Shown here piece by piece: positions 20,451-35,373 of a stretch of DNA of 63,861 bases (the stretch's first letter is position 1; each line of letters opens with the position of its first letter). A program made the position numbers and the translations under genes. The stretch is from Methanonatronarchaeales archaeon. GTDB taxonomy: Archaea; Halobacteriota; Methanonatronarchaeia; JAANXF01. Under the pieces are notes generated by a model. It had not been told where the DNA came from and did no database searches. It saw only the letters and a list, made by a program, of their open reading frames with translations. The stretch is taken from positions 1-63,861 of the forward strand of contig JAANXF010000006.1 in the NCBI GenBank assembly GCA_018263395.1, in the 5' to 3' direction.

Positions 20451-20483
20451 ACTTTTTGTCACGCACTCCTAATTCTCAGGCAG

Positions 20484-22052
20484 ATGGACCTCATCAGGCG
20501 GCTGGCCGCCGAGGGAGAGGGCGGAAACGTAGAGTTCAAGGAGAGGCTCAAAAGCGAGGTCCACCTCTCCGAGGACAGGAGGCAGAGCCTCGCCGCACAG
20601 ATGAAGAACCGCGTGCTGCTCGGCGAAGGTAGGGGTCTCTACCTGGTGGGGGTCGACGACGACGGGGAGCTGCTCGGCATCTCCACTACCGAAATGGAGG
20701 AGTCACTGAGGGTTCTCTCGACGATCGCCGACGACCTCGACCTCGGTATCGACGTGGAGAGGTCCGTGGAGCTCGAAGGCGGCTTCGTGGCTCTTGCCGC
20801 CGTGGAGGAGCCCGCGGTGGAGGGCAGGAAGCACCTCATCGTGGGGACAGCAGGGCACGTGGACCACGGAAAGAGCAGCCTCGTGGGAAGCCTGATTACC
20901 GGCGAGCCGGACGACGGCCGTGGAAGGACCAGGATATTTCTGGACGTGAAGCCCCACGAGATAGAGAGGGGTCTGAGTGCCGACCTGAGCTACGGGGTCT
21001 ACGGTTTCTCCGGGTCGGAGACCCTGAACCTGGCAAACCCGCTGGACCGGTCCGAGAAGGCGTCCCTGATAGAGAGGAGCGACAAGGTGGTCTCATTCAT
21101 AGACACGGTGGGTCACGAGCCCTGGCTGAGGACGGCGATAAGGGGGCTGCTCGGTGGGCAGGTCGACTACGGCCTTCTGGCGGTAGACTCCACTGAGGGC
21201 GTGACGCGGGTGACGAGGGAGCACCTCGGGATAATGCTGGCCCAGGAGATACCCGTCGTGGTCGCTCTGACGAAGGTCGACAGGGTCGACGGGAACAGGG
21301 TCGAGGAGATGGAGCTGGAGGCGGTTCGGCTGGTGAAGAAGGTGGGCAAGGTGCCCTACCGCGTCAGCTGCGTGGAGGACGTGAGGACCGTGCTGCAGCA
21401 GAGTAACAGGGAGGCGCTGGTTCCGCTGTTCAGGACCTCTGCCGTCACAATGGAGGGCCTGAACCTGTTGAACGAGTTCCTGCTAAGGGCCGAAAGGCGT
21501 GACAGGCCGTCGGAAAAGCCGTTCAAGATGTACATCGACAGAGTGTACTCCGTCCGGGGCGTGGGCAGGGTCGTCAGCGGCACGGTTCAGGAGGGCTCAG
21601 TGGAGACCGGGGATACCGTGTTGCTGGGTCCGGACAGCCACGGAAACTACGACGAGGTTCGGGTGAAGTCGGTAGAGATGCACCACCGCCGGGTCGAGTG
21701 GGCGTCCGCGGGCCAGATAGTCGGAATCGCGACGAAGGGGGGGGATCCGGAGCGCGGCATGGTGCTCTGCGGAGAGGAGGCCGCCTCCGCGGTGCGTGAG
21801 TTCGAGGCGGAGGTGATGGTGCTGAACCACCCGACGAGAATAAGCGACGGATACGAGCCGGTTGTCCACCTGGAAACGATCTCGGAGGCCACGCGCTTCA
21901 TAATGGACGACTACCTCGTCGCTGGGGAGTCAGGCACCGTAAAAATGAGGTTCCGGTACCGGCCCTACTGCGTCACGGAGGGGCAGCGATTCGTCTTCAG
22001 GGAGGGCGCGTCGAAGGGCGTCGGCCGCGTCACCAGGCCGCTTCCCGAGTGA
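20484..22052 (+). CDS. GTPBP1-like translational GTPase
   Basis: A 522-residue GTPase of the archaeal GTPBP1/2 group, related to EF-1A. About 115 N-terminal residues of family-specific sequence precede the G domain: G1 GTAGHVDHGKSSLVGSL, G3 DTVGHEPW, G4 ALTKVD. EF-Tu-like beta-barrels follow (VYSVRGVGRVVSGTVQEG; the C-terminal barrel ends in GQRFVFREG). Eukaryotic GTPBP1 has been linked to mRNA surveillance and ribosome rescue; the archaeal function is unproven. Next gene starts at its stop (TGATG). Confidence 0.88.
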   Translation: MDLIRRLAAEGEGGNVEFKERLKSEVHLSEDRRQSLAAQMKNRVLLGEGRGLYLVGVDDDGELLGISTTEMEESLRVLSTIADDLDLGIDVERSVELEGGFVALAAVEEPAVEGRKHLIVGTAGHVDHGKSSLVGSLITGEPDDGRGRTRIFLDVKPHEIERGLSADLSYGVYGFSGSETLNLANPLDRSEKASLIERSDKVVSFIDTVGHEPWLRTAIRGLLGGQVDYGLLAVDSTEGVTRVTREHLGIMLAQEIPVVVALTKVDRVDGNRVEEMELEAVRLVKKVGKVPYRVSCVEDVRTVLQQSNREALVPLFRTSAVTMEGLNLLNEFLLRAERRDRPSEKPFKMYIDRVYSVRGVGRVVSGTVQEGSVETGDTVLLGPDSHGNYDEVRVKSVEMHHRRVEWASAGQIVGIATKGGDPERGMVLCGEEAASAVREFEAEVMVLNHPTRISDGYEPVVHLETISEATRFIMDDYLVAGESGTVKMRFRYRPYCVTEGQRFVFREGASKGVGRVTRPLPE

Positions 22053-32228: not shown

Positions 32229-33035
32229 ATGACGGTCAAACAGTTCATAGAGGAGGGGCTTACGAGGGCCCGAATAGACGAGTTCCTGAACGAGGAGCTG
32301 GCGAGGGCAGGATACGGAGGCGCCGAGGTAAACAGGACCCCGAGCGGCACCCAGGTAACCCTCTACTCCGAGAAGCCGGGCATGGTGATCGGCAAGGGGG
32401 GCAGAAACATCAACGAGCTGGAGGAGAAGTTCTCCGAGGAGTTCGAGCTGGACGAGCTCTCCATCGAGGTCATGGAGGTCGAGGAGGCGAATCTTAACGC
32501 CCAGATAGTGGCTCAGCGCCTGTCCAACGCCCTCGAGAGGGGATGGTACTTCAGGAAGGCCGGCTACTCCACCCTCAGAGACATAATGAACGCGGGGGCG
32601 CTCGGTGCCGAAATCGTCCTGAAGGGCAAGGTGACCGGATCCCGGAGCAGGGAGGAGAAGTTCAGGGACGGCTACATGAAGCACTGCGGGGAGCCGGCCG
32701 AGGACCTCGTGGACACTGGGTACTCCCTCGCCAAGAAGAAGCTCGGCACCATAGGTGTAACTGTGAAAATCGTTCCGCCCGACGTGACGATTCCCGACCT
32801 GGTTGAGATACGTGACATCGAGGAGGAGGAGGAAGAGGAGATAAGGCTCATCGCCGATGGCGAGGCGACCGGCGAGGGGGAGGGCGGCGAAGACGAGGGG
32901 GAAACTGAGTACGTCGAGTGTCTGGAGTGCGGCGGGCAGTACAGACAGATAACCGGCTCCCACCTATCCACCCACGACATGACCATGGAGGAGTACAGGG
33001 AGAAGCACGGGGAAGACGTGAGGACGAGGGTGTGA
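32229..33035 (+). CDS. rps3: Ribosomal protein S3 (uS3) with C-terminal ROS/MucR-like zinc finger
   Basis: 268 residues. KH type-2 domain with [17 protein letters not shown] and the S3 C-terminal domain ([40 protein letters not shown]). An acidic linker ([11 protein letters not shown], then Gly/Glu-rich) leads to an unexpected tail around [19 protein letters not shown] plus [11 protein letters not shown]. The tail has C-x2-C...H-x3-H spacing and a Tyr-Arg-x-Lys-x-Gly ending much like the ROS/MucR zinc finger. No such finger is part of the standard S3 fold. No frameshift is needed: it is continuous with the S3 frame. Confidence 0.95.
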
Positions 33036-35184: not shown

Positions 35185-35373
35185 GCACCCCTTCAACCAA
35201 GGGTTGCTCGAACAGGTCCCTCCGGGAGAGGGAAACCTGTGAACCGCACCGCTTCCTTCAGAAGCGAGTGCTCGAACAGGTCTCTCCGGGAGAGGGAAAC
35301 CTGTGAACCGCACCGCTTCCTTCAGAAGCGAGTGCTCGAACAGGTCTCTCCGGGAGAGGGAAACCTGTGAACC
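35185..35373 (+). repeat. Three-unit tandem hairpin repeat array between rps4e and rpl5
   Basis: Core copies at 35206-35245, 35270-35309 and 35334-35373, spaced exactly 64 nt. Units 2 (35246-35309) and 3 (35310-35373) are identical; unit 1 (35185-35245) has one core substitution and a different leading hairpin. Each unit has hairpin A (CCCTT...AAGGG or CGCTTC...GAAGCG) and hairpin B, in which ACAGGT...ACCTGT encloses CTCTCC/GGGAGAG. The final GTGAACC of copy 3 supplies the rpl5 start codon. A related hairpin pair is at 59918-59975. Confidence 0.95.

Follow-up and report, generated by a model that had tools for sequence, protein, structure and literature searches.

Zinc fingers of the ROS/MucR type bind DNA, and regulators of the MucR type require an N-terminal oligomerisation region in addition to the finger (PMC7283297). 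The bridges described between transcription and translation, NusG/Spt5 and the NusA of Mycoplasma, are each a flexible part that joins the polymerase to the small ribosomal subunit (PMC8116511). In the archaeal machinery, uS3 has been placed at the ribosomal helicase, where it faces the emerging mRNA, and Rpo4/7 binds the nascent RNA at the polymerase; it has also been proposed that the S1 domain of Rpo7 together with archaeal NusA corresponds to bacterial NusA, the protein that couples polymerase and ribosome in Mycoplasma (PMC8116511). Moreover, polymerase and ribosomal proteins of haloarchaea co-purify (PMC8576121). We describe here a small ROS/MucR-like finger that is found on both of these archaeal proteins, S3 and Rpo7, in a class of halophilic archaea related to methanogens.

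The window that we analysed is the whole 63,861-nucleotide stretch of contig JAANXF010000006.1 from a Methanonatronarchaeales archaeon, and it carries the archaeal ribosomal superoperon with the gene order L22-S3-L29. The S3 (uS3) gene lies at 32229-33035 on the plus strand, as do all of its parts given below, and encodes 268 amino acids in a frame that begins directly past the L22 stop codon and finishes 1 base ahead of the L29 ATG. Its identity as S3 is borne out by the archaeal S3 equivalog NF003219, which matches residues 3-213 with 303.5 bits (cut-off 147), by TIGR01008 (255.5 bits), and by matches to both the KH domain (KH_2, PF07650) and the S3 C-terminal domain (Ribosomal_S3_C, PF00189). 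The S3 core (residues 1-195; 32229-32813) is 65-69% identical to the S3 of two other genomes of the class, and is followed by an acidic linker (residues 196-227; 32814-32909) with low pLDDT, in which 17 of the 32 residues are D or E and only one is K or R. The ROS/MucR-like C2H2 finger itself comprises residues 229-262 (32913-33014). Its motif, C231-x2-C234-x10-H245-x3-H249, spans 32919-32975, with the four putative zinc ligands Cys231 (32919-32921), Cys234 (32928-32930), His245 (32961-32963) and His249 (32973-32975) each invariant in 14 of 14 aligned fingers. A second helix-like stretch comes next, and the gene closes with the last six residues of S3, DVRTRV, and the stop codon (33015-33035). 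The frame bears out the preliminary description of this DNA, which had reported an acidic linker leading into C-x2-C-x10-H-x3-H on S3 and had singled out the interval 32880-33035, in which the linker ends and which contains the finger as well as the stop codon. Elsewhere in the window, between the S4e and L5 genes, a 64-base unit occurs in 2.6 copies that are 99% alike (35205-35373), the last of which extends up to and into the start of L5.

The Pfam family ROS_MUCR (PF05443) matches residues 226-261 of S3 with an E value of 5e-8 and 33.4 bits, compared to a curated cut-off of 25.4, and matches the tail alone with an E value of 4e-9. The proposed likeness to ROS/MucR proteins therefore stands for the finger, but not for a whole ROS/MucR regulator, since only positions 62-97 of the 123 in the profile align to the S3 tail; the N-terminus of the protein is S3, and the oligomerisation region of MucR is unmatched. 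An AlphaFold2 model of the tail (42 residues, pLDDT 79) has short strands and two helices (17-22 and 27-34). A Foldseek search of the PDB with this model gave no match at E < 1, and the best geometric overlaps were with the C2H2 fingers of Kaiso, at 1.8 Å. The model of full-length S3 is poor (overall pLDDT 55) because the alignment is shallow; the finger is among its most confident parts, and residues 188-226 have pLDDT values below 50, as is typical of disordered stretches. Chance or an assembly artefact as the source of the finger is ruled out by the Pfam score and by the three independent assemblies in which the finger is found.

The finger resembles that of Ros (Ros87, PDB 2jsp; profile match E 2.8e-8) in its C2H2 ligands, its CxxCG start, the HL at the first helix and the MT(p)EEYREK of the second helix. 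However, in the fingers of this class the second Cys and the first His are one residue further apart, a spacing that is not that of Ros CLECGGSFKSLKRHLTTHH, and the alignment to 2jsp has one gap ahead of HL and one insertion past the second His. They also differ from Ros/MucR proteins in that they come without the MucR N-terminal region, are mostly acidic and are fused to S3 and Rpo7. The net charges of the six class fingers are -4, -5, -4, -2, -4 and 0, where the Ros finger carries +1 and an actinobacterial relative +2, and in place of the basic stretch SLKR of Ros they have (A/Q)IT(G/A/S)S. The same x10/x3 spacing as in the S3 finger is found in a Gordonia plasmid protein annotated as a member of the MucR family.

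The class Methanonatronarchaeia comprises two orders, Methanonatronarchaeales and JAANXF01 (PMC13082222), and we compared three of its genomes: that of the window (G000, 78% complete) and two others (G001 and G002) that belong to a different family from it. These two, one a single-cell and one a metagenome-assembled genome, are Archaeon SCG-AAA382B04 and Candidatus Methanohalarchaeum thermophilum HMET1. In all three genomes S3 terminates in a ROS_MUCR finger with all four ligands, which rules out a fusion limited to one sequence and shows that a lineage shares the finger, as the preliminary description had proposed to check; neither confinement to a single sequence nor a broken Cys or His in relatives was found. 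The linker ahead of the S3 finger is 32, 37 or 52 amino acids long. Among 58 S3 loci, cysteines in the tail occur in five, all from the class, whose three genomes include two that are counted twice through public records, and in none of the 53 other archaeal loci, some of which are near relatives of one another. The fusion searches covered Halobacteriota. Neither the 394 Halobacteriota genomes nor the 394 genomes from the class of G077 that we searched with profiles gave a further S3 or Rpo7 with a finger among the matches examined; those examined were the strong other matches, which were to GvpC, and part of the weaker matches to short frames. In haloarchaea, S3 has an acidic tail that exceeds 100 residues but carries no finger. 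A different ending was seen on S3 in family f4 and in Methanosarcinales records, where an acidic tail is followed by a conserved His-rich motif like HKHEGhdYWHPmarvH (L024, L026, L027, L030, L033, L034 and L035); in five f4 genomes this motif occurs once per genome, on S3.

Each of the three class genomes has exactly two such fingers, whether sought with Pfam, with a custom profile or at a lax E value of 5. The second is C-terminal, after a charged linker, on a protein of 250-257 amino acids, which in the window genome is encoded outside the window (contig C16, 19830-20600, plus strand, with the finger at 20469-20597). This protein matches SHS2_Rpb7-N (2e-17) and then S1 (3e-9), with similar matches in G001 and G002, and these domains identify it as Rpo7, the stalk subunit of RNA polymerase; in the window genome an Spt4-like ORF lies directly after it. 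In 38 other genomes we found no finger on Rpo7, the Rpo7 match stopping short of the finger and a ROS_MUCR search also being empty. All six class fingers, on S3 and Rpo7 alike, score above the ROS_MUCR cut-off and have their putative zinc ligands intact, whereas the linkers ahead of them, which are charged and of low complexity, vary freely in length and sequence.

The fingers of S3 and Rpo7 are more alike within a genome than each is between genomes. Over 34 residues, the S3 and Rpo7 fingers are identical at 30 (G000), 27 (G001) and 25 (G002) positions, compared to 17, 21 and 24 between S3 fingers of different genomes and 20, 20 and 23 between Rpo7 fingers. Ten sites are specific to the pair in one genome (seven in G000, two in G001 and one, a Y to F change in both proteins, in G002), while no site among the six aligned fingers sets S3 apart from Rpo7. 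Both fingers of G000 share an HGEDV ending; in its place YPDA or YPEA stands on S3 and Rpo7 alike in G001 and G002. A tree in which the S3 fingers are monophyletic is rejected, being 28 log-likelihood units worse (AU P value 9e-5 with the six rows), and it is still rejected once GvpC and other rows are added (AU P values 0.009 and 0.013); the S3 and Rpo7 groups for this test were fixed in advance as protein families. The pattern, as read from these alignments and trees, is not what would be expected if two separate fusions had simply been inherited vertically. Its weight is uneven, however, with seven of the ten pair-specific sites coming from G000 and a weak genome grouping between G001 and G002, where the S3 finger of G002 and the Rpo7 finger of G001 (27/34) are as close as any true pair in those two genomes.

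If one finger had recently been copied onto the other, the two should resemble each other in codons as well as in residues. Identical codons at shared residues number 21 of 30, 13 of 27 and 11 of 25 in G000, G001 and G002, where codon usage would lead one to expect 18.1, 15.7 and 14.3, the usage for G001 and G002 being taken from the small sample of S3 and Rpo7 alone. Since codons are no more alike than usage predicts, recent gene conversion is not supported as the explanation, and the likeness of the fingers is kept at the protein level. Either an old conversion or selection holding both proteins alike would account for the co-divergence, and under either origin the alignments indicate that residues were conserved and silent sites left to drift. 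The trees do not reject a grouping that holds all six S3 and Rpo7 fingers together (P value 0.33), nor one that places the G000 pair with GvpC (P value 0.39), and would thus fit either one or two acquisitions of the finger by the two families of the class. Two acquisitions would mean that the finger came to the same pair of proteins each time.

Beyond S3 and Rpo7, the strong matches that we examined were to the haloarchaeal gas-vesicle protein GvpC (Halo_GVPC, PF05465), with some small nuclease-like proteins also close. The GvpC finger is 45-55% identical to the window finger and shares with it C-x2-C-x10-H-x3-H, AIT..HL.THDMT, the acidic linker ahead and the position at the extreme C-terminus (AITEPHLQTHDMTIQEYRDEYGEDVPLRP), but its host is a gas-vesicle coat protein and the GvpC fingers form a separate group in the tree (97/96). 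GvpC loci that end in such a ROS/MucR-like finger are L069, L070, L071, L072, L073, L074, L075 and L086; the GvpC paper that we consulted does not mention zinc. The custom finger profile gave no match to GvpC in the class genomes, and a search for gas-vesicle genes gave no match in the class or in the control genomes. Two small haloarchaeal proteins (L088 and L151) have the same finger spacing and a QIT..HLR.H core, but are free-standing, about 113 amino acids long, with a tail that by eye resembles a nuclease-associated motif (SHPDETKRKIAES). A viral source of the finger was also considered, without support: no relative turned up when viral contigs were scanned with the alignment of the six fingers, and phage records gave only weak matches.

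The co-change of the two fingers in these sequences suggests that the S3 and Rpo7 tags work together. We tentatively favour, with rather less than even confidence, a reading in which the fingers are matched tags that would either tether the polymerase to the ribosome or bring a common factor to the two ends of the mRNA path. The tags would sit on the long flexible charged arms of S3, at the mRNA entry of the ribosome, and of Rpo7, by the RNA exit of the polymerase, and both would bind one ligand, which may be each other, a common partner or adaptor protein, or RNA. The trailing ribosome would then be tethered to the polymerase, or a shared factor loaded at either end, as a lineage-specific aid to transcription-translation coupling on top of Spt5. 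The more specific form, a tether made from two copies of one domain that selection keeps matched, letting polymerase and ribosome recognise one another or an adaptor common to both, is possible but on the unlikely side. Weighing against the tether, most of the signal comes from G000 and the sample comprises three genomes. In addition, Spt5, the candidate usually considered for coupling, is encoded in each of the three, and its loss as the reason for a substitute device is ruled out. The co-divergence could also come from old gene conversion instead of shared binding. Finally, GvpC carries a close relative of the finger, and we know of no role for it in gene expression or nucleic-acid binding; the ligand may therefore be something general.

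It is also conceivable, although we consider it unlikely, that the two fingers act as hands for nucleic acid, the Rpo7 finger gripping the exiting nascent RNA and the S3 finger the entering mRNA, and that they are alike from handling the same kind of RNA, with the machines unlinked. The DNA binding of ROS/MucR fingers (PMC7283297) and the positions of Rpo4/7 on nascent RNA and of uS3 before incoming mRNA (PMC8116511) are in keeping with this, and the haloarchaeal proteins that combine the finger with a nuclease-like motif (L088 and L151) suggest a DNA-binding origin. The acidity of the class fingers, set against the positive charge of Ros and its actinobacterial relative, weakens this reading, as do the replacement of SLKR and the presence of the finger on GvpC. 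Charge alone is weak evidence because halophile proteins are generally acidic, and for the same reason the low positive charge, together with the GvpC carrier, leans only weakly to a protein ligand. The suggestion in the preliminary description that the S3 finger touches incoming mRNA does not find support, given that the same finger is on Rpo7 and varies with it, that GvpC is the nearest other carrier and that five of the six fingers are net negative.

The finger might serve salt-in archaea as a general cap that seals the C-terminal end of a long acidic tail against proteolysis or aggregation, and recur on S3, Rpo7 and GvpC because their acidic tails are exposed. Such a role would suit the position of the finger at the extreme C-terminus behind an acidic or charged linker in all three proteins. 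This seems quite unlikely to us, as the still longer acidic tails of haloarchaeal S3 end without a finger, as the class has just two finger proteins, and as a cap leaves the co-divergence of the S3 and Rpo7 fingers unexplained.

We judge it improbable that the finger spread by domain shuffling or gene conversion and has little function of its own, its likeness on the two proteins being the product of copying between the two genes. Grouping by genome is the expected outcome of conversion, and each of the two tail variants (HGEDV and YPDA) has relatives on other proteins, but the codon counts make any copying old, with residues kept and silent sites saturated, and the zinc ligands are whole in all six fingers, in contrast to the freely varying linkers.

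Autoregulation of the operon is common among ribosomal proteins and the finger scores as ROS_MUCR, but the proposal in the preliminary description that free S3 acts through the finger as a transcriptional or translational regulator is very improbable, as it leaves the matched Rpo7 finger unexplained and as the oligomerisation region needed by MucR-type regulators has no counterpart in S3. Its interpretation as a whole is partly supported.

The finger domain is already known, but its joint presence on S3 and Rpo7 and the co-divergence of the two copies are apparently new, and the mechanism is putative. In the literature that we searched, from which most subscription papers were absent, no paper names the S3 or Rpo7 finger, and we found no description of a function for the finger on S3, Rpo7 or GvpC. 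What emerges is a small finger common to S3, Rpo7 and GvpC in salt-loving archaea. The pair on S3 and Rpo7 bears on the question of whether and how the archaeal RNA polymerase and ribosome are physically coupled: one domain on a ribosomal protein at the mRNA entry and on the polymerase stalk, changing together, provides a specific and testable handle on coupling. If true, the S3-Rpo7 tether would couple the two machines in a way unlike that of NusG/Spt5 or NusA, to which it has no sequence relation, in that the putative bridge would consist of near-identical domains, one on a subunit of the polymerase and one on a protein of the ribosome.
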